This document shows, in pieces, positions 16,491-59,696 of a stretch of 64,000 nucleotides of DNA. The stretch's first letter is position 1. Each line of letters opens with the position of its first letter. The notes beneath the pieces were generated by a model. The model did not search any database and was not told the origin of the DNA. It saw only the letters and a program-made list of their open reading frames with translations. The position numbers were made by a program, and so were the translations under genes. The DNA is from Streptosporangium amethystogenes (lineage in GTDB: Bacteria; Actinomycetota; Actinomycetes; Streptosporangiales; Streptosporangiaceae): contig NZ_JOEQ01000015.1 in the NCBI RefSeq assembly GCF_000721075.1, positions 124,001 to 188,000 on the forward strand, given 5' to 3'.

Positions 16491-16505
16491 ATTCTAATAA
16501 TGATT
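16491..16505 (+). promoter_or_regulatory. AT-rich cluster element upstream of the amidohydrolase
   Basis: ATTCTAATAATGATT fits the shared element ATCTTA-N3-ATGATT in its right half. A TATTCT hexamer at 16490-16495 may be the -10 box. The element lies 17 bp ahead of the ATG in strongly GC-rich surroundings. Confidence 0.5.
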
Positions 16506-16521
16506 GAAGGTGAGGCGCTCG

Positions 16522-17400
16522 ATGTCCGACGTTCGCTTCGTGGATACTCACATGCATCTGTGGCATCTGACCGCGCACAAGTGGTATCCCGCGCTCGATC
16601 CGCCTGAAGGTGAGGACGACTTCGGCATCGGGGACATGGCCGGCCTCCGGAGGGACTACCTGCCCGCGGAATACCGCGCGGACGCCTCCGGCGCGGGGGT
16701 CGTCGTGGACAAGGTGGTCCACGTCTCGGCGGTGACCGCACCCGGGAGTCACCTGGACGAGGCCCGCTGGCTCGACGCCCTTGCCCCCGGTAGCGGTCTG
16801 GTGGGCGCGGTCATCGGCGCCGTCGAGCCGGGTTCGGACGCCGTCGCCGTCGCTCGGGACATCGCCGTTCAGGCGGAGAGCCCGTTGTTCCGGGGGATTC
16901 GGGTCCTGTACGGCTTCGACCCGGTGGACCCGGTGACCCGCACGCTGGTGGAACTGCTGGACGCGGGCGGCCATGTGCTCGACGTGGTCATCCGGCCCGC
17001 CGAGGTCGAGGGCTGGCTACCGCTGCTGCGCGACGTACCGGGGCTCTCGGTGGTCCTCGAACATGCCGGCTGGCCGGACAGCGCGGATCCGGCACACCTT
17101 GCCACATGGCGGGACGGCCTGGCGGACCTGGCCCGCCTGGACAACGTGAGCTGCAAGATTTCCGGCCTGCCGATGGCACTGCACACGCTCGACGGGACGG
17201 TTCTGCGCCCATGGATCGAGACATGCCTGGACGTCTTCGGCACGCACCGGACGTTCTTCGGCAGCAACTTCCCGGTCGACTCTCTGTTCGGGACGTACGC
17301 CCAGCTTGTCGACGCGTACCTGGGCGCGACGAGCGGGCTCACCGCGGCGGAGCGGGACCAGGTGTTCGCGGCCAATGCCGAGCGCTGCTACGGGATCTGA
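16522..17400 (+). CDS. Amidohydrolase-family protein (COG3618-like lactonase type)
   Basis: A 292-aa TIM-barrel metal hydrolase. The N-terminal VDTHMHLW holds the HxH metal site, and the C-terminal FFGSNFPVDS holds the conserved Asp of the 2-pyrone-4,6-dicarboxylate lactonase / rhamnonolactonase-like branch. It probably hydrolyses a lactone or a related cyclic intermediate. ATG 16522 has GAAGGTGAGG upstream and is preferred over the GTG-type extension to 16504. The luciferase-like gene begins 10 bp after its stop, so the two form an operon; ring oxidation followed by lactone hydrolysis would be a coherent pair. Confidence 0.82.
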   Translation: MSDVRFVDTHMHLWHLTAHKWYPALDPPEGEDDFGIGDMAGLRRDYLPAEYRADASGAGVVVDKVVHVSAVTAPGSHLDEARWLDALAPGSGLVGAVIGAVEPGSDAVAVARDIAVQAESPLFRGIRVLYGFDPVDPVTRTLVELLDAGGHVLDVVIRPAEVEGWLPLLRDVPGLSVVLEHAGWPDSADPAHLATWRDGLADLARLDNVSCKISGLPMALHTLDGTVLRPWIETCLDVFGTHRTFFGSNFPVDSLFGTYAQLVDAYLGATSGLTAAERDQVFAANAERCYGI

Positions 17401-17410
17401 GGAGATCGCC

Positions 17411-21722: not shown

Positions 21723-22904
21723 TCATACGACGCCGTCGTGGTGCAGTCGGTGGATGGACGCGTCGTCGTACCCGAGCTCGCGGAGGATCGTGTCGGTGTG
21801 CTCGCCCAGGGCCGGGACGGGACCGGCGGGGGTCTTCCAGGCGGAGCTCACCGGAGGCGCGAGCGGGGTGGCGACCGGGCCGGCCGGCGCGGGCACGGTC
21901 AGCCAGCGGTCACGCGACACGAGCTGGGGGTGGTCGACGACCTCCGCCAGGCCGTTGACCAGGGCGCAGCCGATGCCGGCCCGGTGCAGCGCGGTGACGG
22001 CCTCGGAGCCGCCAAGGCGGCCGATGACCGAGGCGAGAAGCTCGTCGATGTCGGCTCGGTGAGTGACGCGCGCCTGGTTCGTGGCGTACCTGGGATCGCC
22101 GGCCAGGTCGGGCCTCTCCAGCACCGCCGTGGCGAGCTTCGCCCACTCGCGGTCGTTCTGGACGCTCACCGCCACGAGCTTGCCGTCGGCGGTCCGGTAG
22201 ACGTCGTACGGTGCGATGGACGGGTGGCTCATGCCGGACGCGAGGCCGGGTACCGAACCGTGCTTGTGCACGATGAGGGGGTAGCCCATCCAGTCGGCCA
22301 GGGCATCGAGCATCGACACCTCCAGCACGCAGCCCTCGCCCGTACGCTCGCGGCCGAGCAGCGCCGAGAGCACGGAGGAGAACCCGAACATTCCGGCCGC
22401 GATGTCGGCCACGGAGATGCCCGGCTTGATCGGGTGCTCCAGGCTCCCTGTGATCGTCGTCAGGCCGCCCTCGGCCTGGATGAGCAGGTCGTATGCCTTG
22501 CGGTCGTCGTACGGGCCGCCGGTGCCGTAGCCGGAGATCTCGCAGACGACGAGCCGCGGATGCCCGGCGAGCAGGGTCGCGCCGTCCAGGCCCAAGCGGG
22601 AGGTCGCCCCGGGTACGAGGTTGTGCACGAACACGTCGGCCCGCGCCAGCAGGGCCTCGAGAACGCGACGGCCCTGCGGCGCCTTGACGTCGAGCGCCAG
22701 CGACTCCTTGTTGCGGTTGGCCCAGGCGAAGTGCGCCCCGGTGCCGTTGGCGTGGGTGTCGAAGTGCCGGGCGAAGTCGCCGCCGTCGGGCCGCTCCACC
22801 TTGATGACGCGTGCTCCCAGGTCGGCGAGCTGGCGGGTCGCGTACGGCGCCGAGACGGCCTGCTCCATCGAGACGACCAGCAGGCCGTCGAGTGGTGCCG
22901 TCAT
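21723..22904 (-). CDS. CaiB/BaiF family CoA transferase
   Basis: A 393-aa family III CoA transferase. The N-terminal AVSAPYATRQLADLGARVIK and the catalytic Asp of LEVSMLDALADWM are clear, with the C-terminal PALGEHTDTILRELGYDD typical of the family. It would activate a carboxylic acid by moving CoA from another thioester, without ATP. ATG 22904 overlaps the stop of the double-hotdog gene (ATGA); the longer frame upstream is an artefact of overlapping reading frames. Confidence 0.9.
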   Translation of the reverse strand: MTAPLDGLLVVSMEQAVSAPYATRQLADLGARVIKVERPDGGDFARHFDTHANGTGAHFAWANRNKESLALDVKAPQGRRVLEALLARADVFVHNLVPGATSRLGLDGATLLAGHPRLVVCEISGYGTGGPYDDRKAYDLLIQAEGGLTTITGSLEHPIKPGISVADIAAGMFGFSSVLSALLGRERTGEGCVLEVSMLDALADWMGYPLIVHKHGSVPGLASGMSHPSIAPYDVYRTADGKLVAVSVQNDREWAKLATAVLERPDLAGDPRYATNQARVTHRADIDELLASVIGRLGGSEAVTALHRAGIGCALVNGLAEVVDHPQLVSRDRWLTVPAPAGPVATPLAPPVSSAWKTPAGPVPALGEHTDTILRELGYDDASIHRLHHDGVV

Positions 22905-24175
22905 GTGCGGGAGAAGTGCTCGATGGCGGCCTGCAGCGTGCCGTCGAGGGTGCTCGCACCGCCGATCGGCTCGGGCAGGACGACGGGTCCGTGCTCGCGG
23001 CTCGGCAGCAGGATGGTCGCCGTCCCCGGCGCCGTGACCTGGCCACGCTGGTTGGTCGCGGACAGTTCGAGGTCGACGGCCGGGTGGACGCCGTTGCCGT
23101 CCTCGACGAGGTGCTTGCGCACGACGGTGCCGGTGATCCACTGGGCGTCGCCGATGTAGTTGAACTGACGGAACTCCACGCGCAGCCGCCAGAGCCAGGC
23201 GTCGTCGCCCATCCAGTCGGTGCAGGCGTGGATCATCCAGGTCTCACGCATCCGCCCATAGTCGAAGGTCGTGGGGTTGCCGGAGCGGCGCGCGAACTCC
23301 GGGTCCCAGTGCACCCGCTGCATGGCGTCCCAGACCCCGAGTTCGTCGCGGTGGTAGAAGCGCGGGATGCGCCGGCGGTTCCGGTGCGCCAGACGCAGGG
23401 GCGCGACACCATAGACGCCCGTGCCCATGCCGGTGTGCCAGCAGACGATGTCGGTCACGGTGAGGGGGCCCTTGACGAGGGGGGTGATCGCGTCGCCTTC
23501 GTGAACGTCCTCGAACCATCGCGGCTCCGCGCCGCGGGGCCGCTCGGCGGTGTACCGGGCGTCGATCTCGGCGATCCGTTCCTCGGTCCAGGGCTCGATC
23601 GCGACGTCGTCGTACTTCTTGCGCTTGCGCGCCTCGGTGCGCTCGGTGCGGATCATCAGCCGGTACTGCCCGGCGAGCGGGGTGCCGTCGGCGTCGGCGA
23701 AGACGTTGGCGTTCCACTCGTGGACGGCGCGCCCACTGAACTCGCTGGGCTTGTCGAGCACGCCCACGAGGGCGTTGCGCCGGTGGACGGCCCGGTCGGC
23801 GTACAACGGCGACCACCACTCGCGTTCGCACGCGGAGTAGAAGGCGTGGACACCGCGCAGCGGGTCGCCCTTTAGCTCGTCCTGACGGGCCAGGTCGGCC
23901 TCGGTCAGCACGTCCTCGCCGATGACGCTGTCGCCGCCCACGAGCGGAAACGGGGCGATCGGGCGGCCCCAGCGCGAGCGCTCGGCGTAGCCGGGGTCGC
24001 ACCACAGCGGGTTGTCGTCGCCGTAGGAGCGGGCGGCGATGCGGAACGCGTCGGTACCGGGCCGCAGGTAGTGGGGCGGCACCGGGTTGGGCTGGGCGAT
24101 GCCGATGCGCGCACGCAGTGCCGCCACCCCCCCGTCCGTGATGCGGGGCTGGGTCTTCTCATCCGTCGGAGCCAT
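22901..24175 (-). CDS. FAS1-like/MaoC double-hotdog dehydratase
   Basis: A 424-aa protein with two hotdog regions, the first resembling the FAS1-like dehydratase N-terminal domain (RIAARSYGDDNPLWCDPGYA) and the second around VTDIVCWHTGMGTGVYGVAP and the C-terminal strand block. Large substrate pockets are typical of this group, which often acts on bulky cyclic acyl-CoAs. It is first in the six-gene operon down to 18522, 78 bp from the divergent crotonase with a palindrome in between. Confidence 0.82.
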   Translation of the reverse strand: MAPTDEKTQPRITDGGVAALRARIGIAQPNPVPPHYLRPGTDAFRIAARSYGDDNPLWCDPGYAERSRWGRPIAPFPLVGGDSVIGEDVLTEADLARQDELKGDPLRGVHAFYSACEREWWSPLYADRAVHRRNALVGVLDKPSEFSGRAVHEWNANVFADADGTPLAGQYRLMIRTERTEARKRKKYDDVAIEPWTEERIAEIDARYTAERPRGAEPRWFEDVHEGDAITPLVKGPLTVTDIVCWHTGMGTGVYGVAPLRLAHRNRRRIPRFYHRDELGVWDAMQRVHWDPEFARRSGNPTTFDYGRMRETWMIHACTDWMGDDAWLWRLRVEFRQFNYIGDAQWITGTVVRKHLVEDGNGVHPAVDLELSATNQRGQVTAPGTATILLPSREHGPVVLPEPIGGASTLDGTLQAAIEHFSRT

Positions 24176-24208
24176 GTTGCCTGGACGTCCTCTCGCCTTT
24201 TCTTTGCT

Positions 24209-24226
24209 ATCTTATAACTATAAGAT
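24209..24226. promoter_or_regulatory. AT-rich 18-bp perfect palindrome between divergent operons
   Basis: ATCTTATAACTATAAGAT is perfectly self-complementary apart from the central AC (8-2-8). It is preceded by TTTGCT. It sits between the operon reading left from 24175 and the crotonase reading right from 24254, so one bound repressor could control both. It shares ATCTTA with the other cluster elements. Confidence 0.7.
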
Positions 24227-24253
24227 TCGACATGTCGAGAAAGCGGGGGGCGC

Positions 24254-25006
24254 ATGGTGTACGAGACGTTGCTCGTCGAGCGTCACGGGCCGGTGGGCTG
24301 GCTTGTGTTCGACCGGCCGCACGCCGGCAACGCCATGGACGCCGTGATGATGGCCGAACTGCCGCGCGCCTGGCGCGAGCTCGACCGGGACGAGGACGTG
24401 CGCTGCATCGTCGTGTCCGGACGCGGCAAGGCGTTCCAGACCGGGCTGGACATGGCGGCCCTCGCCCGCGACCCTGCGAGCCTGCGGGAGTCGAGCCGGC
24501 GCACTCGTGACGCGGCGCTGGAGCTGACCGGCTGGCATCTCGGCGTCGGCGTGCCGGTCGTCGCCGCTGTCAACGGGGTGTGCGCCGGGGGAGGTCTGCA
24601 CTTCGTGGTCGACGCCGACGTCGTCCTCGCCGCGCGCCACGCCACCTTCGTCGACCCCCACGTCAGCGTCGGCCAGGTCAGCGCCTGGGAGGCCGTAGGC
24701 CTGGTGCGCCGGATACCTGCCACGGCCGCCGCCCGCCTCGCGCTCATCGGGGTGCACGAGCGCCTCGATGCCACGCGGGCGCGCCAGCTGGGACTGGTCG
24801 GCGAGGTGGTCGACGGCGAGGAGTTGCGAGACGCGGCGCAGCGTGTGGCCGAAGCGATCGCCCGCGGTCACCCCGTATCGGTACGGCGGATCAAGCAGGC
24901 GCTCTGGCGGTCGGAGGAACTCGGTCTGGCCGGAGCGCTCACAGCGGCCCGCGAAGCGGCGCCGCGGCCGATGCATCACCAGAGAGACGGAGAGGTTCAG
25001 CCATGA
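24254..25006 (+). CDS. Enoyl-CoA hydratase/isomerase (crotonase family)
   Basis: A 250-aa crotonase. The oxyanion-hole region AVNGVCAGGGLHFVVDADVV and FVDPHVSVGQVSAWEAVGLV align closely with the paralogue at 19766-20572. ATG 24254 has a purine-rich GGGGGG leader. Its stop overlaps the start of the acyl-CoA dehydrogenase (ATGA). Confidence 0.9.
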   Translation: MVYETLLVERHGPVGWLVFDRPHAGNAMDAVMMAELPRAWRELDRDEDVRCIVVSGRGKAFQTGLDMAALARDPASLRESSRRTRDAALELTGWHLGVGVPVVAAVNGVCAGGGLHFVVDADVVLAARHATFVDPHVSVGQVSAWEAVGLVRRIPATAAARLALIGVHERLDATRARQLGLVGEVVDGEELRDAAQRVAEAIARGHPVSVRRIKQALWRSEELGLAGALTAAREAAPRPMHHQRDGEVQP

Positions 25007-26307
25007 CAGAGCAGCAGCCGGCGTCCACTGAGGTGCCGGTCGGACCGGACGTGCGGCCCGATCTGGCCGTCGAGGCGGTCCGGGGGTGGATCGAGGCCCA
25101 CGTGCCCAGGCCGTGGCGCGAGGCGGGGGAGAGAGGCGGCGCGCGCGCGGTACGCGTGGTCAGGTCGCCCGAGGAGTACCAGGCGTGGTATCCCGTCTTC
25201 GGCGCCTCCGGCCTGGTCGCCCCGACCTGGGACGTCGAGCACGGTGGGCTCGGCTGGAGGCGGCCCGTCGCTGCGGCCGTCGAGAAGGTGCTGCGCCGGT
25301 ACCATCTCCCGAGGCTCAACCCCCTCGGGCTCAACCTCGTCGCCCCGGCGCTGTTCGCGCACGGGACTCCGGAACAGCGCCGCCGCTTCCTCGGCCCGAT
25401 CGTCCGGGCCGAGGAGTTCTGGTGTCAGCTGTTCAGCGAGCCCGGTTCCGGCAGCGACCTCGCCTCGCTGTCGACGAGGGCCGAGCGGGACGGCGACACA
25501 TGGGTGGTGACCGGTCAGAAGGTGTGGACGACGTGGGCCGATCGCGCCGACTTCGGCGTCCTGCTCGCCCGCACCGATCCGGACCTGCCCAAGCACCAGG
25601 GCATCGGCTATTTCCTCATGGAGATGCGGCAGCCCGGCGTCGAGGTCAGGCCGCTCCCTCACATCGGCGGGGAGACGGAGTTCTTTGAGGTGTTCTTCGA
25701 CGGTGCCAGGGTCCCGGACGGTCACAGAGTCGGCGAGGTCGGCGCCGGCTGGAGGGTCGCGCAGGCGACTCTCAGCGGGGAGCGGCAGATGGCGTCCGGG
25801 TCGGGATCGGGCGGCGTCGACCGGATCGGCGGTGTGAGCGCCTCCCATCTCGTACGCCTGGCTCGCCGGCGGAGCGCGGCCGGCCTGCCGGGCGGCTGGG
25901 ACGATCCGGTGACCCGAGAGCACATCGTCTGGCTGTGGTGCGAGGAGCAGGCTCGTACCTGGACGAACCAGCGCGTCCGGGACCGGCTCGCTGGCAACCT
26001 CCCGCCGGGACCGGAGAGCTCGATCGGCAAGGTGCACGGCTCCGAGCTCAACCAGCGTGTCCAGGAGATGGCCGCGGACCTGCTGGGCGAGGATGCCATG
26101 GCGTGGCGCGGATCGGCCTCGACGCCCGCCGAATACTGGGATGGCATGCCGGCGGAGATCCGTGGACTGCTCCGCAGCCGTGCCAACACCATCGAGGGCG
26201 GCACCACCGAGGTCAACAAGAACGTGATCGCCGAACGGGTCCTGGGACTACCGAAGGACTTCGACCCCTACCGGGGAAGGCCCTGGCGGGAACTGCCCCG
26301 GAGCTGA
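25003..26307 (+). CDS. Acyl-CoA dehydrogenase (long FadE type)
   Basis: A 434-aa FAD enzyme, longer than the canonical 380-400 aa. Motifs are CQLFSEPGSGSDLASL, TGQKVWTTWADRADFG and, at the C-terminus, NTIEGGTTEVNKNVIAERVLGLP, with the glutamate in the EGGT position. A frame open from 24580 overlaps the crotonase; ATG 25003 is the start because it overlaps the crotonase stop and follows GAGAGG. It is co-transcribed with the crotonase. Confidence 0.9.
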   Translation: MTEQQPASTEVPVGPDVRPDLAVEAVRGWIEAHVPRPWREAGERGGARAVRVVRSPEEYQAWYPVFGASGLVAPTWDVEHGGLGWRRPVAAAVEKVLRRYHLPRLNPLGLNLVAPALFAHGTPEQRRRFLGPIVRAEEFWCQLFSEPGSGSDLASLSTRAERDGDTWVVTGQKVWTTWADRADFGVLLARTDPDLPKHQGIGYFLMEMRQPGVEVRPLPHIGGETEFFEVFFDGARVPDGHRVGEVGAGWRVAQATLSGERQMASGSGSGGVDRIGGVSASHLVRLARRRSAAGLPGGWDDPVTREHIVWLWCEEQARTWTNQRVRDRLAGNLPPGPESSIGKVHGSELNQRVQEMAADLLGEDAMAWRGSASTPAEYWDGMPAEIRGLLRSRANTIEGGTTEVNKNVIAERVLGLPKDFDPYRGRPWRELPRS

Positions 26308-28478: not shown

Positions 28479-28493
28479 GTCACTCCGAGAGCT

Positions 28494-28508
28494 ATCTTAT
28501 CTATTATT
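28494..28508 (+). promoter_or_regulatory. AT-rich cluster element in a divergent promoter region
   Basis: ATCTTATCTATTATT matches ATCTTA-N3-ATGATT at all but one of the fixed positions. On the minus strand TAAGAT (28499-28494) sits where a -10 box for the dehydrogenase operon would be. The following ATTATT-GA-AATAAT adds a second short dyad (28503-28516). Confidence 0.65.
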
Positions 28509-28591
28509 GAAATAATGACGCTATTCTAGGGCTCGTCCGCGACGTCGGCAACGGGCCCGTGTCCGAGGGCGTCCTGAGCAGGGAGAGAGCC

Positions 28592-32835: not shown

Positions 32836-32846
32836 TGTGTCACTCT

Positions 32847-32861
32847 AACATATTAATGATG
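32847..32861 (+). promoter_or_regulatory. AT-rich cluster element upstream of the SnoaL-like and UGSC operons
   Basis: AACATATTAATGATG is a weaker match to the shared element and carries the dyad ACAT-N7-ATGT (32848-32862). It lies in the region between the divergent SnoaL-like gene and the NifU-like gene. Confidence 0.4.
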
Positions 32862-32932
32862 TAAATCATAGGAAGACGGACGTCGCGCAGTCGCCAAATT
32901 GAGGTACCTGATTTCAGTGATCCGTACATCCA

Positions 32933-33004: not shown

Positions 33005-33256
33005 ATGGCAGTGATGTCGATCGGTGCACAGCTCGTCGCCGAATTCGACCGGATGGTCCGCCGGGACGGCGGCGAGGTCACCCTCCTGGCGGAGGACGGT
33101 GACGTGATCCGCGTTGGTTACCGGCCCGGGAACGCCGGCCCCGATTGTCGCGACGATGTCTGCATTCTGCCGCAGCAGGAGCTGTGGCAGCTCATGGCCG
33201 AGACACTGCGCCGGCGTGGCCCGCACATCGAGCTCGTGATGGAGGTACTCCCGTGA
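33005..33256 (+). CDS. Small NifU C-terminal-domain-like protein
   Basis: An 83-aa protein. VRRDGGEVTLLAEDGDVIRV resembles the start of the NifU C-terminal (Nfu) domain, a one-domain iron-sulfur scaffold, but the two cysteines are spaced C48-x4-C53 (DCRDDVC) rather than CxxC. ATG 33005 has GGAGG 8 nt ahead; longer starts from 32933 have none. Its stop overlaps the GTG of the UGSC gene (GTGA), so the proteins are probably made in equal amounts and may work together. Confidence 0.7.
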   Translation: MAVMSIGAQLVAEFDRMVRRDGGEVTLLAEDGDVIRVGYRPGNAGPDCRDDVCILPQQELWQLMAETLRRRGPHIELVMEVLP

Positions 33257-35757: not shown

Positions 35758-35858
35758 GCGCGGGCGATCTCGGTGACCGTCCCGCGTTGTCCGCCGGGAA
35801 CGTCGCCGCACTTGAGCGCTGGTCCATGCACCCTTGTTTCGGCCGTGTTATCTATGTA

Positions 35859-35883
35859 TCTTATAAATCATTGATTTATAAGA
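35859..35883. promoter_or_regulatory. 25-bp perfect AT-rich palindrome upstream of the SsuABC-like importer
   Basis: TCTTATAAATC and GATTTATAAGA are perfect complements separated by ATT (11-3-11). With the preceding A it contains ATCTTATAAATCATT, a match to the shared element. It lies about 40 bp ahead of the ATPase start and probably covers its -10 region. This is the most symmetric copy in the window. Confidence 0.8.
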
Positions 35884-35922
35884 CTCCACCGTAGAGTGGC
35901 GGTCGCAGAGAGGTGCTTCGTG

Positions 35923-38745: not shown

Positions 38746-39513
38746 TCACGGCTCGGTGCCGCGGGCGAAACCGCGGCACCGACCCAGACTCGATCGCCTC
38801 GTCGCCGCCAGGTGGGCACTCGCCAGCTTGACGGCGCGCGCTCCGTCTCCGGCCTCGATCGCGTCGACGAGCTTCTCATGGTCGCGAAGCGCCGCCCGGC
38901 GCGACTTGCGGGCCATCGGCGAATCCGGGTCGGTCTCCCCGTCGACGGACACCTCGGACCACACGGTGGACTCATGGGCGGTCCAGATGATCTCAAGGGA
39001 TCCGATAATGACGATCATCGTCTCGTTGCCGCACGTCTCGACGAGCTTCTCGTGGAAGCGCCGGGCCCGGATGGGGAACTGCTCGGGATCGTCGAAGGCC
39101 TCGTGCTGCTCCTCGATGACGCGGCGCAGTTCCGGCACGGTCGTCTCGGCGCGATCGGTACGCGCGGCGCAGAGCGCGACGCACGTGGGCTCGATGTGGA
39201 GCAGGGCACCGCTCACATCGGCCATGTTCGTGCGCCGCGTCTGCAGGACCATGCTGATCGTGCGTGCGATGCGCTGCGGCGTGGGCAGGTGTACGACGGC
39301 GCCTCCGACGTTGCCGCGCCTGACGGAGACGAGCCCCTCGGTCTCAAGGATCCGCATGGCCTCGCGCACGGCGGGCAGGCTGACCCGGAACTCGGTGAAG
39401 AGGTGCTCCTGACGAGGCAGGCTGTCACCCTCTGTCAGCCGGCCAGAAAGGATGTCGTCGCGCAGCTTCGCGGCGACGATCTCGGCGAGACGCGGCTGTC
39501 GTAGCTGTCGCAC
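38746..39513 (-). CDS. GntR-family regulator, FadR/FCD type
   Basis: A 255-aa regulator. N-terminal winged helix with SLPAVREAMRILETEGLVSVRRG and a following FCD domain. GTG 39513 has GGAGAGGGG a few nt upstream and is preferred over TTG 39528. It lies convergent to the importer and directly downstream of the ligase. Cluster AT-rich half-sites occur upstream at 39592-39610, which makes it a candidate regulator of the shared element. Confidence 0.87.
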   Translation of the reverse strand: MRQLRQPRLAEIVAAKLRDDILSGRLTEGDSLPRQEHLFTEFRVSLPAVREAMRILETEGLVSVRRGNVGGAVVHLPTPQRIARTISMVLQTRRTNMADVSGALLHIEPTCVALCAARTDRAETTVPELRRVIEEQHEAFDDPEQFPIRARRFHEKLVETCGNETMIVIIGSLEIIWTAHESTVWSEVSVDGETDPDSPMARKSRRAALRDHEKLVDAIEAGDGARAVKLASAHLAATRRSSLGRCRGFARGTEP

Positions 39514-39591
39514 AGGACCCCTCTCCAATTAAACTCCGACACGGACGGGTCTCAGACTGTCCCTGTCAATGTTGCGTATGACCCCGTCGTC

Positions 39592-39610
39592 AATCATACA
39601 ATCATTATGA
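39592..39610 (-). promoter_or_regulatory. AT-rich repeated half-sites upstream of the GntR gene
   Basis: AATCAT occurs at 39592-39597 and 39600-39605, 8 bp apart, and TCATA/TATGA form a dyad (39594-39598, 39606-39610). AATCAT is the right half of the shared element read on the other strand. The site is about 80 bp ahead of GTG 39513. Confidence 0.5.
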
Positions 39611-41197: not shown

Positions 41198-41224
41198 GTC
41201 CGTCCTCTCGATGGCGTGAAACCT

Positions 41225-41239
41225 TATTATTATAAAGAT
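41225..41239 (-). promoter_or_regulatory. AT-rich cluster element nearer the ligase
   Basis: ATCTTTATAATAATA on the minus strand, with TATAAT (41234-41229) as a consensus -10 box. The leader before ATG 41197 is about 25 nt. It is the first of two copies in this divergent region. Confidence 0.65.
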
Positions 41240-41278
41240 AGCAATATCACGAAGGCTAGGCTGGCGCCCTAAGAGTTC

Positions 41279-41293
41279 ATCTTTATAATGCTT
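41279..41293 (+). promoter_or_regulatory. AT-rich cluster element and -10 box of a leaderless crotonase
   Basis: ATCTTTATAATGCTT includes TATAAT at 41284-41289, six nt before ATG 41296. A transcript starting about seven nt after the -10 box would begin at the start codon, so the gene is probably leaderless. Confidence 0.7.
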
Positions 41294-44569: not shown

Positions 44570-44649
44570 TCAGGCGGTAGGCCAGGGAATTCTCTCCTGA
44601 CTCATTGCCAGCGGGCCTCTCTCGTGCCAGCCTTTAGCGCATAGGATTC

Positions 44650-44664
44650 AATCATAGCTAAGAT
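44650..44664 (-). promoter_or_regulatory. AT-rich cluster element upstream of the Liv-type importer
   Basis: The minus strand reads ATCTTAGCTATGATT, identical to the copy at 59682-59696 at 13 of 15 positions. On the plus strand TAAGAT (44659-44664) is a plausible -10 box, 12 nt before ATG 44677. Confidence 0.75.
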
Positions 44665-44676
44665 AGGCAGGATCCG

Positions 44677-46733: not shown

Positions 46734-48583
46734 CAACTGTGAAATGGTGGAAGACGCTCAGGGCGGTGCCGTCGTGGGCGTACGCCGCGATGCTGGGAGT
46801 GTTCCTCCTGGTGCTTCCCGCCCTGCAACCGGGCTATTCGGTGACCAGGCAGGTGCAGCTGACGCTCATCCTCGCGCTCGTCGTCAGCGGGCTCAACCTC
46901 TCGCTCGGATACGCCGGGCAGCTCGCGATCGGCCAGGTGGCCATGTACGCGGCGGGCGCCTACACCGCGGGCATCATCTCGGTCGCGGGCGTGACGGACC
47001 TCCTCGTCCAGCTGCTCGCCGCGGGGACGGCCGCGCTGGTTGTCGGGATCATCACCGGGATACCCGGCCTGCGGCTCGGTTCCTGGTCACTGGCCATGAC
47101 ATCGTTCTTTCTCGTGCTGCTCGTGCCGGACGTCGTGTCGATCTTCGAAGAGCACACGGGCGGCCAGCTGGGGCTTACGGGTATCCAAGGCGCGACCCTG
47201 TTCGGGTACCAGCTCACGCCGACCGACTTCTACCTGAGCGTCGTGGTCGTGGCGATCCTGTGGTTCGCCGCGTTCCGCAACATCATCGTGTCCCGCCACG
47301 GGATCGCGTTCCAGATGCTCAAGCACAGCCCGGTGCTGGCGTCCTCGGTCGGCATGTCCGTCTTTCGCGTCAAGCTCACCGGCTACGCGACCGGCGCCAT
47401 CCCCGCCGGGCTCGCCGGCGCCCTCTTCGCCAACCTGGACCTGTTCGTGTCGCTCGACGCGTTCGGCTTCACTGTCGCCACCGGCGCGCTGGCGGCCTCC
47501 ATCCTCGGGGGCTCGGTCAGCGTCTACGGCGCACTTCTCGGTGCGGCGGTCGTGGAGTTCGCCAGCTCCCGGTCGGACAGCTTCCAGGAGTACTCGCTGG
47601 TTTTCTTCGGGCTGTTCCTCCTCGTTGGAGGCGTACTGCTCAGCGGTGGAGTCGCGGGCGCGGTGCGCCCGCTCGTCGCCCGCCTCGACAGGGCCGCCGG
47701 CCTCATCGGTGCCGATCGCAGGTCATCGGGCGCGGGGGAGGGCGAGGCGGTCCACCGCATCGACGGCGGCCTGCTCGAGGTCACCGGAGTGTCCAAGGCA
47801 TTCGGCGGGAACCGGGTGCTCACCGGCGTGTCGCTGCGTGCGGAACCCGGCCGCGTCACCGCGCTGATCGGCCCCAACGGGTCCGGCAAGACGACAATGC
47901 TTAACCTCATCTGTGGTTACTACCGCCGGGACGTGGGCGAGATCACCATGGACGGGAAGCCGATCAAGACGGCCGCGACCCATCTCATCGCGAGGCTGGG
48001 GGTGGCACGGACGTTCCAGACGCCGCTGATCCCGCGGTCCGTCACGGTCCGGGACGTCGTGGCCTCGGGACGCTACACAGTGGAGCGCGCGTCGTTCGCA
48101 GGGGCGATCCTGAGGACCCCCCGGTTCCGGGCGGTCCGACGGCGGGACCGGCAGCGAGCCGACGAGATACTCGGGCTCGTCGGCCTCGGCCACCTGGCCG
48201 GCACCGAGGCGGCCACGCTGCCGCTCGGCATGCGGAGGATGCTGGAGGTCGCGCGGGGACTGGCGGCCGAGCCCAAGGTCCTGCTCCTCGACGAGGCGGC
48301 GTCCGGCCTGGACGAGGCCGAGGTGGAGACCCTGGCCGAGGTGATCCGCCGGATCCGCGACGCGGGGTGCACCATCATCCTGGTCGAGCACAACTTCGGT
48401 CTGGTGCTGTCGCTCGCGGACGAGATAGTCGTCCTGGCGCGCGGGTCCGTGCTGGCGGTCGGCCCCCCGTCCAAGATCGCAAATGATCCACGGGTGCGCG
48501 ACGAATACCTGGGCACGAGTGACGAGGGTGCTCGGCCGGACGAACCGGTCATCACGGCGGCCGGACAGGAGAGCACATCGTGA
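46730..48583 (+). CDS. livM: LivM-LivG fusion: permease joined to ABC ATPase
   Basis: A single 617-aa frame. Residues 1 to about 315 form a LivM-type permease with repeated hydrophobic segments (NLSLGYAGQLAIGQVAMYAAG). After a hydrophilic linker, about 345-600 is a LivG-type ATPase: Walker A GPNGSGKTT near 381, a variant signature LPLGMRRMLEVARGL near 497, and Walker B LLLDEAASGLDEAE near 518. In most bacteria these are separate genes. GTG 46730 overlaps the LivH stop. The fused chain ties one ATPase to one permease half. Confidence 0.92.
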   Translation: MTTVKWWKTLRAVPSWAYAAMLGVFLLVLPALQPGYSVTRQVQLTLILALVVSGLNLSLGYAGQLAIGQVAMYAAGAYTAGIISVAGVTDLLVQLLAAGTAALVVGIITGIPGLRLGSWSLAMTSFFLVLLVPDVVSIFEEHTGGQLGLTGIQGATLFGYQLTPTDFYLSVVVVAILWFAAFRNIIVSRHGIAFQMLKHSPVLASSVGMSVFRVKLTGYATGAIPAGLAGALFANLDLFVSLDAFGFTVATGALAASILGGSVSVYGALLGAAVVEFASSRSDSFQEYSLVFFGLFLLVGGVLLSGGVAGAVRPLVARLDRAAGLIGADRRSSGAGEGEAVHRIDGGLLEVTGVSKAFGGNRVLTGVSLRAEPGRVTALIGPNGSGKTTMLNLICGYYRRDVGEITMDGKPIKTAATHLIARLGVARTFQTPLIPRSVTVRDVVASGRYTVERASFAGAILRTPRFRAVRRRDRQRADEILGLVGLGHLAGTEAATLPLGMRRMLEVARGLAAEPKVLLLDEAASGLDEAEVETLAEVIRRIRDAGCTIILVEHNFGLVLSLADEIVVLARGSVLAVGPPSKIANDPRVRDEYLGTSDEGARPDEPVITAAGQESTS

Positions 48584-49299
48584 CCGACCCCCTGCTCACA
48601 GTGGAGCACCTGGCGACCGGTTACGGCGATCTCCGTGCCGTATGGGACGTCTCGTTCCGGGTGTGGTCCGGTCGCATCACCGCTCTTCTCGGCCGTAACG
48701 GCTCGGGTAAGACCACCTCACTGCGGGCCGTCGCGGGGCTCAACCCGGTGCACGGCGGCACGATGACCTACGACGGCCGGCCGCTGGAGAGCGTCGCCGC
48801 CCACCGCCGGGTGGCTCTGGGCGTCAGCTACGTCCAGGAGGGCAAGCGGGTCTTCCGCGCACAGTCCGTACGGGAGAACCTGCTCCTCGGCGGCTACAGC
48901 CTGAAGCTGCGCCGCAAAGCGCTGGAAAGCGAGCTCGCGAGGATCTACGACCTCTTCCCGATCCTGCACGCCAAGCGCGACGATCCGGCAGGGTCGCTGT
49001 CCGGCGGCCAACAGCAGATGGTGGCCATCGGCCAGGCCCTGATGGCGAAGCCGCGCTTGCTCATGCTCGACGAGCCGTCGGGCGGCCTCGCGCCGTCGGT
49101 CGTCGCCGAGGTCATGGCGCGCGTTTCGGAGCTCAAGGAGTCGGGCCTGGCCATCCTGCTGGTCGAGCAGGCCGTCGAGGCGGCGATGGACGTCGCCGAC
49201 CATGTGACGGTGATCGACATCGGCAAGGTCGTGGTGAACTCACCGGTCCACGAGATCGACGACCTCGAAAAGATCAAGGACGCCTGCATAGGCAGGTGA
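48580..49299 (+). CDS. livF: ABC transporter ATPase, LivF-like
   Basis: A 239-aa ATPase: Walker A GRNGSGKTT, signature LSGGQQQMVAIGQAL, Walker B LLMLDEPSGGLAPSV. GTG 48580 overlaps the stop of the LivM-LivG gene. It is the second nucleotide-binding subunit of the importer, and the operon ends in the strong hairpin that follows. Confidence 0.93.
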   Translation: MTDPLLTVEHLATGYGDLRAVWDVSFRVWSGRITALLGRNGSGKTTSLRAVAGLNPVHGGTMTYDGRPLESVAAHRRVALGVSYVQEGKRVFRAQSVRENLLLGGYSLKLRRKALESELARIYDLFPILHAKRDDPAGSLSGGQQQMVAIGQALMAKPRLLMLDEPSGGLAPSVVAEVMARVSELKESGLAILLVEQAVEAAMDVADHVTVIDIGKVVVNSPVHEIDDLEKIKDACIGR

Positions 49300-49943: not shown

Positions 49944-49945
49944 GG

Positions 49946-52243: not shown

Positions 52244-52288
52244 GCTCTGTCCCACCTGCAGGTTCCGGCGGCCACTTCGAGGCCCGAA

Positions 52289-52320
52289 ATCTTGTTTATG
52301 CTATGATTACTATTATTACC
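52289..52320 (+). promoter_or_regulatory. AT-rich cluster element (split halves) between divergent genes
   Basis: ATCTTG (52289-52294) and ATGATT (52303-52308) correspond to the two halves of the shared element with a longer spacer, followed by TATTATT and, at 52321, TATAAG. The region separates the esterase and the dehydrogenase operon. Confidence 0.45.
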
Positions 52321-54291: not shown

Positions 54292-55503
54292 GTGCGTGAC
54301 GCTGTGATCTGTGAGCCCGTACGGACGCCGATCGGACGCTACGGGGGATCGCTCAGGGGGCTGTCCGTGGCGGAGCTCGGCGCCCAGGCGATGCGCGGGC
54401 TGCTCGACCGCACGGGCATCGAACCGGACGCGATCGACGACGTGGTTCTCGGGCACTGTTATCCGACGAGTGAGGCACCGGCCATCGGACGCGTGGTGGC
54501 GCTGGACGCCGGTCTGCCGGTCACGGTGCCCGGCCTCACCATAGATCGGCGCTGCGGATCCGGTCTCCAGTCCATCCTGTACGCCGCACAGCAGGTCATG
54601 GCCGGTGACGCCCGGCTGGTGATCGCCGGCGGCGTGGAGAGCATGAGCAACGCCGCACATTTCTCCGGCGACATGCGGTGGGGCGCCCGCCAGGGCGGGG
54701 TCGTGTTCCACGACAGCCTGGAGCGCGGCCGGGTCACCGCCGGCGGCCACCGCCACCCCGTTCCCGGTGGCATGCTGGAGACTGCGGAGAACCTCCGCCG
54801 CGAGTATGCGATCCCGCGCTCGGAGCAGGACGCTCTCGCGGTCCTGTCCCATGCGCGGGCCGTCGAGGCGCAGCGCAGTGGCGCGTCCGCGGAGGAGATC
54901 GTTCCTGTGACCGTTCCCGCCAAGGGCGGCGACGTGATCGTCGGCCACGACGAGCATCCTCGCGCCGACACCACGATGGAAGCGCTCGCCCGCCTCCGTC
55001 CGATGCGGGCGGCGATCGATCCCGAGTCGACGGTGACCGCCGGCAACGCGAGTGGCCAGAACGACGCCGCGGCCCTGTGCGTCGTCACGACGACGCGGCG
55101 GGCCGAGGAACTCGGGCTGCGGCCGCTGGTACGGCTGGTTTCGACGGGCCTCGCGGCCGTCGAGCCGCACCGCATGGGCATCGGCCCCGTCCCGGCCACC
55201 GAGATCGCCCTCGCACGCGCCGGAATCACGTTGTCGGACGTCGACGTCATCGAACTGAACGAGGCCTTCGCGGCACAGGCCATCGCGGTGATGCGCGAGT
55301 GGGGCTTCGGCCAGAAGGATCTCGAACGCACCAATCCGCGCGGGTCCGGGATCTCGCTCGGCCATCCGGTCGGCGCCACCGGGACGCGCATGGTCGGCGC
55401 CCTCGCCCGCGAACTGCAACGCCGTGAACAGCGGTACGGCCTGGCCACGTTGTGCATCGGCGGTGGCCAGGGCATCGCGGCGGTCTTCGAGCGGGTCGGC
55501 TGA
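54292..55503 (+). CDS. Acetyl-CoA C-acyltransferase (thiolase)
   Basis: A 403-aa thiolase. The nucleophilic Cys88 is in DRRCGSGLQS, the His in GHPVGATGTR, and the second Cys in CIGGGQG. It cleaves 3-oxoacyl-CoA to acetyl- or propionyl-CoA. GTG 54292 has AGCAGGAG upstream; the longer frame from 54265 lacks a site. Confidence 0.92.
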   Translation: MRDAVICEPVRTPIGRYGGSLRGLSVAELGAQAMRGLLDRTGIEPDAIDDVVLGHCYPTSEAPAIGRVVALDAGLPVTVPGLTIDRRCGSGLQSILYAAQQVMAGDARLVIAGGVESMSNAAHFSGDMRWGARQGGVVFHDSLERGRVTAGGHRHPVPGGMLETAENLRREYAIPRSEQDALAVLSHARAVEAQRSGASAEEIVPVTVPAKGGDVIVGHDEHPRADTTMEALARLRPMRAAIDPESTVTAGNASGQNDAAALCVVTTTRRAEELGLRPLVRLVSTGLAAVEPHRMGIGPVPATEIALARAGITLSDVDVIELNEAFAAQAIAVMREWGFGQKDLERTNPRGSGISLGHPVGATGTRMVGALARELQRREQRYGLATLCIGGGQGIAAVFERVG

Positions 55504-55511
55504 GCGCCGCC

Positions 55512-56546
55512 ATGAGCGATCTCAAGCTTGGACTCGCGCTGGGCTACTGGGGAGCAGGGCCGCCGCCCGGACTCGCCGAGCTGGTCACGGCCGCCGAGCG
55601 ACTCGGGTACGACTCGATGTGGGCCGCCGAGGCGTACGGTTCGGACGCGCTCACACCGCTCGCCTGGCTGGGCGGCCGGACCGGGCGGATGAGGCTCGGC
55701 ACGTCCATCATGCAGATGTCCGCGCGGACGCCGGTGGCCACGGCGATGGCGGCGATGACGCTTGATCACCTGTCGGGAGGCAGGTTCGTACTCGGGCTCG
55801 GTGCCTCCGGTCCGCAGGTCGTCGAGGGCTGGTACGGCCAGCCGTACTCCAAGCCGCTCGCGCGCGCGCGGGAGTACGTCGCGATCCTGCGCCAGGTGAT
55901 GGCGCGCGAGAAGATGGCCTTCGACGGTGAGCACTATCGCCTGCCGTATCCGGGCGGCAGCGGGCTCGGAAAGCCGCTGCGCTCGACCGTCCATCCGCTC
56001 CGCGCCGACCTGCCGATCCTCCTCGCCGCAGAGGGGCCGAAGAACGTGGCTCTCGCGGCCGAGATCGCCGATGGTTGGCTGGCGATGTTCTATTCCCCCT
56101 ACGACGACGCGCACTACCGGGCGTCCCTTGATGAGGGGTTCGCCCGACGGGAGGCGCGCAGTATCCGGGAGACGTTCGAGGTGACGTGCCGGGTGAACGT
56201 CGAGATCGACGACGACGTCGAAGCCGCGGCCGATCGCGTCCGGCCGATGCTCGCACTCTACGTCGGAGGCATGGGCGCCAGGGGCGCCAACTTCCACTTC
56301 GAGGCCTTCGCGCGCATGGGCTTCGAGGCGGAGTGCGCCCGGGTCCAGGAGCTCTACCTGGAGGGACACAAGGAAGCGGCCGCGGCCGCGATACCGCTGG
56401 CGATGGTGGAGAAGGTCGCGCTGGTCGGGCCGCGATCGAAGATCGCCGAGGAACTCGACGTCTGGCGGTCGTCGCTGGTCACGACGATGTTGGTCTCCGG
56501 TGACCCCACGCGGCTGGCCGCGATCGCCGAGCTCGTCCACGGCTGA
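55512..56546 (+). CDS. LLM-class oxidoreductase, Rv3520c-like
   Basis: A 344-aa luciferase-fold protein, with LKLGLALGYWGAGPPPG, TLDHLSGGRFVLGLGASGPQVVEGWYG and LPILLAAEGPKNV typical of the F420-dependent Rv3520c family. ATG 55512 is 8 bp after the thiolase stop, so it is part of that operon. It may oxidise an alcohol or ring position; F420 use is by family only. Confidence 0.87.
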   Translation: MSDLKLGLALGYWGAGPPPGLAELVTAAERLGYDSMWAAEAYGSDALTPLAWLGGRTGRMRLGTSIMQMSARTPVATAMAAMTLDHLSGGRFVLGLGASGPQVVEGWYGQPYSKPLARAREYVAILRQVMAREKMAFDGEHYRLPYPGGSGLGKPLRSTVHPLRADLPILLAAEGPKNVALAAEIADGWLAMFYSPYDDAHYRASLDEGFARREARSIRETFEVTCRVNVEIDDDVEAAADRVRPMLALYVGGMGARGANFHFEAFARMGFEAECARVQELYLEGHKEAAAAAIPLAMVEKVALVGPRSKIAEELDVWRSSLVTTMLVSGDPTRLAAIAELVHG

Positions 56547-56602
56547 GCCGCCGGCCGCCCGGCTGCGGTGCGCCGGCCCCTACGAGATCTGGAGGCACGT
56601 CC

Positions 56603-57340
56603 ATCAACGACAAGATCTACATCCACGAGTTCATCACCATCACCAAGCAGAGCCGGGCGCGGTACATGCAGCACATGACCGCGAACTTCAGCCCGATCGC
56701 GCAGGAGGAGCGCGACCAGCTCTGCTACGGCGTCTGGGGGATCGTGGGGTCCACGGCGTGGTGGCCCGGCGTGGTGAACATCTGGGAGGAGAACGGGTTC
56801 ACCGGGCTCGCGTCCTCGTTCCGCCACGAACTCGGCCATCCCACTCTGCAGGACCCCAAGCTGGCGGATTGGTGGGCGGCGGCCGCGGACCTGCGCTCCG
56901 GCGGCGTCGACCGGCTGATGCTGCCGGCGCCGTGGACGCGCACGATCGAGGAACTGTGCGCGGACGGTGTCAGCGGCGAGGTGTACGCGCACGAGCAGGT
57001 CACGGTGCCGCCGGGGCAAGCGGCCGACTTCCTGGAACGGGTCCGCGAGCAGGCGGTCCCGTACTACGAGCGGTTCGGCTGGGTGCTGGTCGGCGCCTGG
57101 CGGACCGCGCTCGGCGGCGACTCGGAGTGCGTCCTGCTCTGGGCGATGCCCAGCTACGAACGGTGGGCCGAGTTCGAGATGGCCTGGGACGCGGACCGGA
57201 CCGCCGGCGGGTGGCGGTCCCGGCTGCGGGAGTCTGCCCGGTCGTTCCAGCGGATCCTGCTGGTCGACGCCCCGTTGTCCCCGATGCGGATCGGCCGCCA
57301 GCCCAGCCGGACGGACCGCACCGAGGACTGGCAGGACTGA
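56603..57340 (+). CDS. NIPSNAP/dimeric alpha-beta barrel-like protein with probable ATC start
   Basis: A 245-aa protein, two repeats of a ferredoxin-like alpha-beta unit: KIYIHEFITITKQSRARYMQ and VYAHEQVTVPPGQAADFLER. Coding-like sequence extends upstream of the first ATG (56666) and no ATG, GTG or TTG is in frame there. GGAGG at 56591-56595 lies exactly 7 nt before ATC 56603, which opens (M)NDKIYIHEF. Either ATC is used as a start, a base change has hit an ATG, or the sequence has an error. It follows the LLM gene, in the same operon. Role unknown. Confidence 0.7.
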   Translation: MNDKIYIHEFITITKQSRARYMQHMTANFSPIAQEERDQLCYGVWGIVGSTAWWPGVVNIWEENGFTGLASSFRHELGHPTLQDPKLADWWAAAADLRSGGVDRLMLPAPWTRTIEELCADGVSGEVYAHEQVTVPPGQAADFLERVREQAVPYYERFGWVLVGAWRTALGGDSECVLLWAMPSYERWAEFEMAWDADRTAGGWRSRLRESARSFQRILLVDAPLSPMRIGRQPSRTDRTEDWQD

Positions 57341-57456: not shown

Positions 57457-57523
57457 GCGAGGGGAGGGGCCGCTTCCACCCCGGGCCTACGGGCCGCGAC
57501 ACCACGGGACTTCGGTGGTGCGG

Positions 57524-59656
57524 TCAGGCGGTGACCACCAGGGCGTCGACCGCCACCACGCCGCTTCCGCGCGGGCGTACCAGCAGCGGGTTGACGTCCA
57601 GCTCCAGCACCGCGTCACCAAGCTCCAAGGCCAGCGTCTGCAGCCGCATCACCGTGTCGACGAGCGCGTCGAGGTCACCCGCCGGTCGGCCGCGGACGCC
57701 GCCGAGCACGGTCATCGCCCGGGTCTCCCCGATCATGCACAGCGCCTCGGACCGGGAGAACGGCGGCACCCGAAACGATACGTCCCGCATCACCTCGGTG
57801 AACACCCCGCCCAGCCCGAAGGTGATGGTCGGGCCGAAGGGCGGCTGGTGGCTGACGCCGAGGATGACCTCGGCCACCGCGTCGGTGATCTGCGGCTGGA
57901 CCACGACGCCGGTCAACCGCAGCCCGGGGGCGCCGGCCGTGATCCGCCGGTAGGCCTCGCGGACCTGGGCCGGATCGCCGAGCCCGACATGCACCAGCCC
58001 GAGGTCCGACTTGTGGACGAGGTCGTCGGCGAGCGCCTTGAGCACCACCGGGTAGCCGAACCGATCCGCCGCCGCGACCGCCTCGTCCGCGGAGCCGGCA
58101 ACGACCTCCGGCACCACCGGGATGCCGTACTCGCCCAGGAACCGCTTGGCGGCCACCTCGTCCAGAGTGGACCCGGCGGTGAGATGTCCGCGCGCGGCCG
58201 CGGCGGCAGGGGACGGCACCCGCGGCACGTCGGCGAACGGGCTGCGGTAGGCGCGGTGCAGCGCCCAGAAGTCCGCCATCGCCCGGATGCCGCGCACCGC
58301 GGTGCGGAAGGAGTGGAAGACCGGGATACCGGCCTCGCAGAGCGCCCGGTGGTCCGCGTCGCGGATCGGCGACGTCCAGGCGACCACGATCGGCTTGCCG
58401 CCCTGGGCGTGCAGCGCGATGAGGTCCCTGGTGATGGCGTCGCTCATCCCGGGGAAAACCCCGGTGATCGGGCAGAGCAGGATGTCGGTGTTGGCGTCCT
58501 CCATCAGCGCCTCGAGCACCTTACGGCCCTCGGGGCGGGCCGTCGCGACGCCGCCGGTGTCGACGGGGTTGTCGACGTGCAGGTACCCCGGCAGCAGTTC
58601 TCGCAGCCGGGCGAGGGTGTGCTCCTCCAGTCGAGGCAGTGGCACGCCGGCCATCCCGCACAGGTCCGCGACGTGCGAGCCCGTCCCGCCGGACATGACG
58701 CACAGTGCCACCCGGTCGCCCGCGACCGGCGGGGTGTGGCAGAACGCCCCGGAGATCTCGATGGCCTCGTCGATGTCGTCCACGCGGATAACGCCGGACT
58801 GGCGGAACACTGCGTCCTGCACGGCGTCCGAGCCGGTGAGGTGTCCGGTGTGCGCCTTGGCCATCGCCTGGCCCTGGTCGGAACGTCCGACCTTGATGCA
58901 CACGATCGGCACGCCGGCCCGCACGGCCTCGCCGGCCGCCAGGCGCATGGTTCGGCCGTCGACGAAACCCTCGACGTACGACGCGATCGCGCCGACGCCC
59001 GGTGTGTTGGCGAAGTGCGCGACGAAGTCGGCGAACTCCAGGTCCACCTCGTTGCCGAGCGTCGCCCAGGCGTGGATGCCGATGCCGAGTTCCTCGCCTT
59101 GCACGATCGGGCGGCCCTGGTTTCCGGATTGGGTGACCACGGCCAGCTTGCGCCCGGGCTGTCCCTCCCGCCAGGGTTCGAGGAGGTTGAGGTTGGTGTT
59201 CGGCCCGATGATGCGCATCTCGCCCTTCGCGAGCTCCTCAAGTCGCTGTTGCGCGAGCCGACCCTCGGCCGTGCCCAGCTCGGCGAAGCCTGCCGCGAAG
59301 ACGATCGCGAAGCGCACACCCTTGGCGGCGCACTCCTCGAGCACCGGCAACGGATCGCGGACGAGCACGATGGCCACGTCGATGTCCTCGGGGATGTCCA
59401 GCACAGTGCGGTATGTGGGGACCCCGTCGATGGCCGGCTTGCCGGGATGCACGGGATGAACGGCCCGTACCCCCCGGGACAGCAGGCGTTCACGGGCCTG
59501 GCGCCACTGTGCCCGCTGGGGACTGCCCTCGGTATCGGTGGCCCCGATGACCGCGACGGCGTTCGGGGTGAACAGAGTTTGCCAGTCGATGCTCCGCAGG
59601 GCTAGTGGGCGCCCGCTGACGTCGACTTCCGCCTCGCTGCGATCGGGTGAGCTCAT
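57524..59656 (-). CDS. NDP-forming acyl-CoA synthetase (acetate-CoA ligase ADP-forming type)
   Basis: A 710-aa fused synthetase: CoA-binding domain at the N-terminus (AVAVIGATDTEGSP), succinyl-CoA-ligase-like middle, and ATP-grasp domain at the C-terminus (GYPVVLKALADDLVHKSDLG). The phospho-His is probable in KAHTGHLTGSDAV. It converts acid plus CoA plus ATP to acyl-CoA, ADP and phosphate, or the reverse to save energy. ATG 59656 is divergent from the SDR-HyuAB operon. Confidence 0.9.
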   Translation of the reverse strand: MSSPDRSEAEVDVSGRPLALRSIDWQTLFTPNAVAVIGATDTEGSPQRAQWRQARERLLSRGVRAVHPVHPGKPAIDGVPTYRTVLDIPEDIDVAIVLVRDPLPVLEECAAKGVRFAIVFAAGFAELGTAEGRLAQQRLEELAKGEMRIIGPNTNLNLLEPWREGQPGRKLAVVTQSGNQGRPIVQGEELGIGIHAWATLGNEVDLEFADFVAHFANTPGVGAIASYVEGFVDGRTMRLAAGEAVRAGVPIVCIKVGRSDQGQAMAKAHTGHLTGSDAVQDAVFRQSGVIRVDDIDEAIEISGAFCHTPPVAGDRVALCVMSGGTGSHVADLCGMAGVPLPRLEEHTLARLRELLPGYLHVDNPVDTGGVATARPEGRKVLEALMEDANTDILLCPITGVFPGMSDAITRDLIALHAQGGKPIVVAWTSPIRDADHRALCEAGIPVFHSFRTAVRGIRAMADFWALHRAYRSPFADVPRVPSPAAAAARGHLTAGSTLDEVAAKRFLGEYGIPVVPEVVAGSADEAVAAADRFGYPVVLKALADDLVHKSDLGLVHVGLGDPAQVREAYRRITAGAPGLRLTGVVVQPQITDAVAEVILGVSHQPPFGPTITFGLGGVFTEVMRDVSFRVPPFSRSEALCMIGETRAMTVLGGVRGRPAGDLDALVDTVMRLQTLALELGDAVLELDVNPLLVRPRGSGVVAVDALVVTA

Positions 59657-59681
59657 GACCGGAGCCTAGCTCAAAGAATAT

Positions 59682-59696
59682 AATCATGACTAAGAT
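59682..59696 (-). promoter_or_regulatory. AT-rich cluster element in the synthetase/SDR divergent region
   Basis: The minus strand reads ATCTTAGTCATGATT, 13 of 15 bases equal to the copy at 44650-44664. On the plus strand TAAGAT (59691-59696) may be a -10 box. On the minus strand TATATT (59681-59676) may serve the synthetase. Confidence 0.75.

Follow-up and report, generated by a model that had tools for sequence, protein, structure and literature searches.

What co-ordinates the many acyl-CoA genes that Streptosporangium amethystogenes carries side by side on one contig? We examined positions 124001-188000 of contig C15 (64,000 nucleotides, hereafter the window), which has a GC content of 70% and makes up 0.68% of a genome of 9.44 Mb. 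An initial annotation had noticed a short AT-rich element, written as ATCTTA-N3-ATGATT, at eleven places ahead of most operons of the cluster, and had suggested one regulator for the whole set. The shared AT-rich element is real. It is very probably the operator of an FCD-domain GntR regulator encoded midway along the cluster (38746-39528), which would be the pathway-specific, shared local regulator of a catabolic regulon and probably acts as a repressor. Computation showed the motif itself, how enriched and conserved it is, where it sits in promoters, and that it co-occurs with the regulator gene.

Does the element hold up as it was first written? At up to three mismatches, nine of the eleven listed sites matched ATCTTA-N3-ATGATT (16491, 28494, 32847, 35858, 41225, 41279, 44650, 52289 and 59682), and the window gave 15 strand matches against a mean of 3.19 and a maximum of 9 in 100 dinucleotide shuffles. 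The other two, at 24209 and 39592, had at best five mismatches each and are related AT-rich elements that use the same half-sites at a pitch of 9 and 8 bp, respectively. Two extra matches with three mismatches each were found, one within a called gene (39921) and one between the called genes 55452-56546 and 56666-57340 (56602), both scoring below 8 bits with the matrix described below. The latter, a weak copy at 56602-56616, lies ahead of a NIPSNAP gene, and the related locus L058 has a matrix match of 8.6 bits before its NIPSNAP gene. The copies at 44650 and 59682 are indeed identical at 13 of 15 bases, and the first 16 kb, described as free of the element, had no matrix match of at least 8 bits in 1-16.4 kb. 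In the whole genome, four of the five places with at most one mismatch to ATCTTA-N3-ATGATT fell inside the window, and at up to two mismatches there were 62 strand matches versus 19 for the reversed control pattern.

The form of the element had to be revised, however. In an expectation-maximisation motif search on the ten window 5' regions containing the first-listed sites, palindromic models were preferred over non-palindromic ones at all six widths tried (12 to 20), using an ad hoc score similar to the Bayesian information criterion; without the penalty, the non-palindromic models fitted better because they have more parameters. On that score ATCTTA-N3-ATGATT was set aside as a consensus. 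The 15-mer is an off-centre reading of the palindrome CWATSWTWNNWAWSATWG, the consensus of 47 aligned operators from the window, the 20 kb past it (L002) and 15 related loci picked for clear sites. Each half of the palindrome reads WATSWTW, and the halves lie 9 bp apart. Furthermore, 26 of 46 operators carried an extra half-site 8 or 9 bp outside the palindrome on at least one side, compared with 0-7 at eight control offset pairs (L067, a Nonomuraea locus like L059, was omitted from both the 47-operator consensus and the 46-operator count). Chains of two to four half-sites at a pitch of 8-9 bp coincided with all eleven first-listed places, including 24209 and 39592, so that the shared element stands as a palindrome or array of WATSWTW half-sites. 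One more half-site pair in the window falls within a gene (40376) and is probably a chance match. A further pattern, ATNWTNNNNAWNAT, was rejected as too loose; in-frame ATC and ATG codons seem to dominate the places it listed.

Is the operator more frequent here than expected? A matrix was built from eight window sites and used at a threshold of 8 bits unless stated otherwise. It gave 14 matches in the window against a single one in 18 stretches of 20 kb (360 kb) of the same genome, chosen by position. Since the patterns derive from the window, its own counts are in part circular, and therefore loci outside the matrix-building were tested. Twelve held-out loci of other species were chosen solely for close orthologues of the window FCD-GntR (from Nonomuraea, Spongiactinospora, Sphaerimonospora, Rhizocola, Actinophytocola, Blastococcus, Trujillonella and a Streptosporangiales metagenome-assembled genome). 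They yielded 55 matches, some overlapping, versus a mean of 4.8 for column-permuted symmetric matrices, none of 200 of which reached 55. The corresponding numbers were 37 matches versus a permuted mean of 4.6 in 54 mycobacterial loci, and 39 versus 6.7 in the remaining 14 loci, where again none of 200 permuted matrices reached the count. The 20 kb directly past the window held three matches at two places, which were not significant alone (reached by five of 200). Orthologous loci are mutually related, and thus their sites are not independent events. The string WATSWTWNNWAWSATW with at most one mismatch occurred at 11 places in the whole genome, seven of them in the window and eight on its contig; the reversed control also gave 10, and what is striking is therefore how the places cluster rather than how many there are. 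Among the matches listed for other genomes, 5 of 9 (G149), 9 of 14 (G152) and 6 of 13 (G153) lay on the contig of the regulator, and the mycobacterial genomes G156 and G157 had one and two places, all away from the regulator. Other contigs of two Nonomuraea genomes also carried strong operator pairs with a spacing of 9 bp (G152:C124:24216 and G155:C64:115540), perhaps marking a second target cluster.

Where do the sites lie, and which protein could read them? In the window, the operator centres precede the nearest called start by about 6 to 43 bp; the gene of the regulator itself, with 72 bp, is the exception (start codons are mechanical calls). The putative operators and their proposed reader are as follows.

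16481..16505: operator, three half-sites at 9 bp pitch, before amidohydrolase/LLM oxidoreductase genes.
24199..24227: operator variant, two half-sites at 9 bp pitch followed by TATAAGAT, in the divergent promoter of 22901-24175 (minus strand) and an enoyl-CoA hydratase gene at 24254 (plus strand); the counterpart promoter in L061 and L063 (Trujillonella and Blastococcus loci) has TATCTTATACAAGAAA.
28493..28517: operator, three half-sites, in the divergent promoter of an acyl-CoA dehydrogenase pair (minus) and an enoyl-CoA hydratase gene at 28559 (plus); this promoter also bears a site in L059, L060, L062 and L067.
32846..32870: operator, three half-sites, before a SnoaL-like gene (minus) and a UGSC gene (plus); a site before the SnoaL gene is also found in L056, L058, L059, L060 and L067.
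35849..35885: operator array before the ABC transporter ATPase operon 35896-38705; promoter also site-bearing in L056, L059, L062 and L067.
38746..39528, minus strand: FCD-domain GntR (FadR-subfamily) regulator, 260 aa, TTG start, the proposed operator reader.
39592..39606, minus strand: proposed self-operator, a direct repeat of ATGATT at 8 bp pitch.
41220..41240: operator before the AMP-ligase gene 39611-41197 (minus).
41270..41293: second operator of the divergent promoter shared with 41220..41240, before an enoyl-CoA hydratase gene at 41296 (plus); this promoter also has two sites in L056, L059, L060 and L067.
44642..44665: operator before the branched-chain-type ABC transporter operon 44677-49299; promoter also site-bearing in L056, L059, L060 and L067.
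52288..52317: two operators, 14 bp apart, in the divergent promoter of an alpha/beta hydrolase gene (minus) and an operon for acyl-CoA dehydrogenase, short-chain dehydrogenase/reductase (SDR) and thiolase (plus).
59673..59706: operator array in the divergent promoter of an ATP-grasp CoA ligase gene (minus) and SDR/hydantoinase genes (plus); promoter also site-bearing in L058.

Sites were thus found at corresponding promoters across species despite rearranged gene order. In L058, for example, the thioesterase gene now neighbours the NIPSNAP gene and the UGSC gene has been relocated next to the regulator, and the gaps before the moved genes still bear sites. In six of the 12 held-out loci (L056, L058, L059, L060, L062 and L067), all 41 matches fell outside sequence homologous to window proteins, though such non-homologous sequence makes up only 6-27% of the spanned sequence.

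Several observations connect these sites with the FCD-GntR gene. In L056, L058, L059 and L060, window homologues account for 92-94% of the spanned sequence, and FCD-GntR is the sole regulator among them. A site of at least 6 bits was found within 1 kb upstream of 50 of the 54 mycobacterial regulators, which are about 60% identical to that of the window (permuted mean 2.6; one of 300 reached the count), the commonest being CTATCTTGTACAAGATAG (n=13). Over all loci the number was 60 of 80 (permuted mean 4.6; none of 300). We also searched for perfect palindromes blind to the regulator: CTATCTTNNNNAAGATAG was found in 5 of 394 genomes of the class and CTATCWTNNNNAWGATAG in 8 of 345 genomes of the order (overlapping genome sets), giving 13 places in all. 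For eight of these 13 palindromes (G043 and seven of the twelve that were fetched), an FCD-GntR of the window regulator's group was encoded within 10 kb; two more had one about 17 and 19 kb away on their contig. No member of the group was present in the 18 background stretches, all of which come from the window's genome. A Novosphingobium plasmid, whose regulator is 48% identical, had sites of 16.4 and 18.3 bits. Operator and regulator gene therefore co-occur in other genomes, with the exceptions listed below. In the Actinophytocola locus, a second FCD-GntR (L062:4736-5476, 60% identity) lies 4.5 kb from the first and is a possible paralogue with its own operators.

The regulator may also control itself. 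Its upstream sequence AATGATTGTATGATT was identical in the window, L056, L057 and L059 and had one base changed in L060; L067 has AAAGATTGTAAGATT, in which both repeats bear the same change. This direct repeat at 8 bp, unlike the other operators, which are inverted at 9 bp, was therefore preserved in six of the seven aligned loci. The protein itself belongs to the FadR subfamily of the GntR family by its Pfam domains (GntR, 9.5e-18; FCD, 4.9e-18). Its AlphaFold model (mean pLDDT 86.8) had FadR-subfamily structures among its top Foldseek matches. A protein search returned 2669 relatives at E <= 1e-40, and the names listed among the best 120 were general family names or a pyruvate-dehydrogenase-repressor label. 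Literature searches found no described regulator recognisable as the window FCD-GntR or its operator, which is no proof of absence, and an exact-string literature search for ATCTTGTACAAGAT returned no paper.

A number of results weigh against assigning the operators to this regulator. The 8-bit count of the mycobacterial set was equalled by two of 200 permuted matrices. Twenty of the 80 regulators had no 6-bit site within 1 kb upstream, and three of the 13 blind palindromes had no such regulator in reach, two of them being on short contigs. No site of at least 8 bits was present in 20 kb around the regulators of L043 (50% identity) and L048 (47%) or in the more distant L052-L054, and the Mycobacterium branderi plasmid locus L181 (46% regulator) had no site of 7 bits. 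L061 and L063-L065 had one or two matches of at least 8 bits each, none near the regulator. The self-operator is weak as a palindrome (4.5 with a 14-wide model) and was not kept in L062, the seventh aligned sequence. Finally, the N-terminal extension of Escherichia coli NanR, discussed below, is missing from the window regulator in a pairwise alignment with its start as called.

Could the similarity simply reflect promoters? The initial annotation had itself cautioned that AT-rich -10 boxes might explain some of it, and in a GC-rich genome the AT content of promoters could in principle produce such a pattern. The actinobacterial -10 consensus is TANNNT, the half-sites TATCTT, TAAGAT and TATAAT fit it, and the sites stand just ahead of genes. 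However, the 360 kb chosen by position from the same genome gave one match, permuted matrices of equal base content failed in the held-out loci, and the extra half-sites keep a specific pitch of 8-9 bp. As the sole cause, -10 boxes were rejected and are highly improbable, whereas overlap of the sites with -10 boxes may well occur. A second alternative is that the operator is real and is read by another protein, such as the UTRA-type GntR (10934), the HTH_3 protein (9404), a TetR from the 20 kb past the window or a regulator elsewhere. These genes exist, and co-occurrence with FCD-GntR could reflect the inheritance of the cluster only. The initial annotation had put forward the GntR proteins of the cluster in general; FCD-GntR is now the candidate, and the UTRA-GntR (10934-11701) had no counterpart in ten tabulated related loci (L064 and L065 not tabulated; HTH_3 and TetR not among the queries). 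The blind palindromes, moreover, led to FCD-GntR genes of 40-63% identity even where the neighbouring genes differed. In the mycobacterial loci, site and regulator are what is shared; most other genes are only 26-49% alike, except a set of SDR, thiolase and acyl-CoA dehydrogenase genes near 70%. Another reader is rather unlikely, and the held-out enrichment and the co-occurrence with the regulator give good support to the proposal that a single regulator serves the entire set. The UTRA-type GntR and the HTH_3 protein (9404-10828) lie in the operator-free part of the window and are probably unrelated to the regulon.

Does the protein repress or activate? FadR-subfamily proteins of both the activator and the repressor kind are known, and the extra half-sites could position dimers of an activator. 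Nevertheless, apart from that of the regulator's own gene, the window operators are centred so close before the nearest start codon that repression, for which such a position is more usual, is favoured. An activator or dual regulator is a minority possibility, one we consider less improbable than the two alternatives above. With FCD-GntR as a repressor, we infer binding, repression, cooperativity and effector response as follows. A dimer would bind the palindrome CWATSWTWNNWAWSATWG through its two WATSWTW half-sites, 9 bp apart. Since many operators have extra half-sites, several dimers may bind side by side, and third and fourth half-sites at 8-9 bp pitch could allow cooperative binding of adjacent dimers like that of the three dimers of E. 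coli NanR. Protein bound about 6 to 43 bp before start codons would block transcription. A pathway acid or its CoA thioester in the FCD pocket would abolish binding, and about ten promoters would be switched on together.

NanR was the closest solved structure to the regulator by sequence (6on4, E 6.6e-17) and by Foldseek E-value, although TM-scores were higher for 6az6 and 2di3. The NanR model was also its only NCBIfam match at 1e-20, yet far below the cut-off (96.7 of 260 bits). The GGTATA repeats of the nan operator of E. coli MG1655 have a pitch of 9 and 8 bp, comparable with the 8-9 bp of the window half-sites. However, (GGTATA)3 consists of direct repeats, while the sites here are WATSWTW and mostly inverted at 9 bp, direct at 8 bp only in the self-operator. 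NanR has Arg in its LPSEREL motif. In this column, Glu (65) or Asp (15) was found in 80 of the 81 aligned members of the regulator's group; we take it, on FadR numbering, to be the column of FadR Arg35, which contacts a conserved G. Arg at the G-contacting position of the helix-turn-helix is usual, not universal, in the FadR subfamily. Three NanR dimers bind their operator cooperatively, and this requires a 32-residue N-terminal extension (PMC8012715).

The operators of the FadR subfamily, as described in PMC4494728, are AT-rich palindromes as here, and weaker extra half-sites were noted there near GntR-family sites, 7-12 nt from the site centre. The consensus given there is TKGT/ACMA, a core that was absent from the symmetrised counts of our 47 operators from selected loci. 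The mycobacterial operator CTATCTTGTACAAGATAG has a central GTAC but lacks the 2-3 nt spacer of TKGT/ACMA boxes. The Glu/Asp replacement goes with the missing TKGT/ACMA core, and no causal role is claimed for it. In the same paper, Arg at position 28 was linked with G/C in the TKGT box and the rarer Asp also preferred G/C (PMC4494728), and therefore the replacement and the missing core do not fit together simply. BioR is another FadR-subfamily regulator with an AT-rich palindrome without TKGT/ACMA, TTATMKATAA (PMC4494728). It differs in being an alphaproteobacterial biotin regulator (PMC4554459) with a shorter operator; the comparison was made by description and not by protein sequence.

What would the regulon do? 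In the window it includes genes for enoyl-CoA hydratases, CoA ligases, acyl-CoA dehydrogenases, SDRs, a thiolase, LLM and HsaA-like oxygenases (the HsaA-like gene encodes a monooxygenase by family scans) and two ABC transporters. These enzyme families fit a cyclic acid as substrate without naming one, and our guess is a cyclic carboxylic acid processed as a CoA thioester. The operator set extends past 59.7 kb and past the end of the window, into L002:

L002:2273: putative operator between a CoA-transferase gene and an ABC transporter operon.
L002:17376-17400: putative operators before a 2-hydroxyacid dehydrogenase/hydrolase/CoA-ligase set.

A TetR gene is also present at L002:19134-19787, and a near-perfect operator with one mismatch was seen on the same contig at G000:C15:58630-58645, 65 kb before the window. 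Fifteen genomes of the same genus had no close relative of the regulator (best match 3e-16) and no match to the UGSC protein at 1e-30; therefore the cluster is probably an accessory acquisition. In homologues of the UGSC-family protein (33145-34965), the frames of G037, G066, G073 and G078 hold internal TGA and some also TAG codons. Such TGA codons could fit (seleno)proteins; no internal stop interrupts the window copy. The proteins 22901-24175 and 24997-26037 have homologues in several operator-bearing loci and had no Pfam match at 0.001 and no NCBIfam match at 1e-20.

In a wider sense, we tentatively propose, with somewhat less than even confidence, that the regulator represents a widespread FadR-subfamily clade in which Glu or Asp replaces the G-reading Arg. 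Such a clade may read DNA by a code of its own: WATSWTW arrays with a pitch of 8-9 bp, in inverted orientation at targets and in direct orientation at the self-promoter, to which chains of dimers bind. Regulator and operators could then form a travelling module that serves differing accessory acyl-CoA clusters in Actinomycetota and on at least one alphaproteobacterial plasmid. What began as a hint in the raw sequence has become a regulon open to testing, with an identified candidate regulator and about ten promoters inside the window plus others past it. The operator can be scanned for in other genomes, where it can delimit and compare catabolic clusters whose substrate has not been assigned, and it offers a clean case for changes of DNA specificity and spacing in FadR-subfamily proteins.

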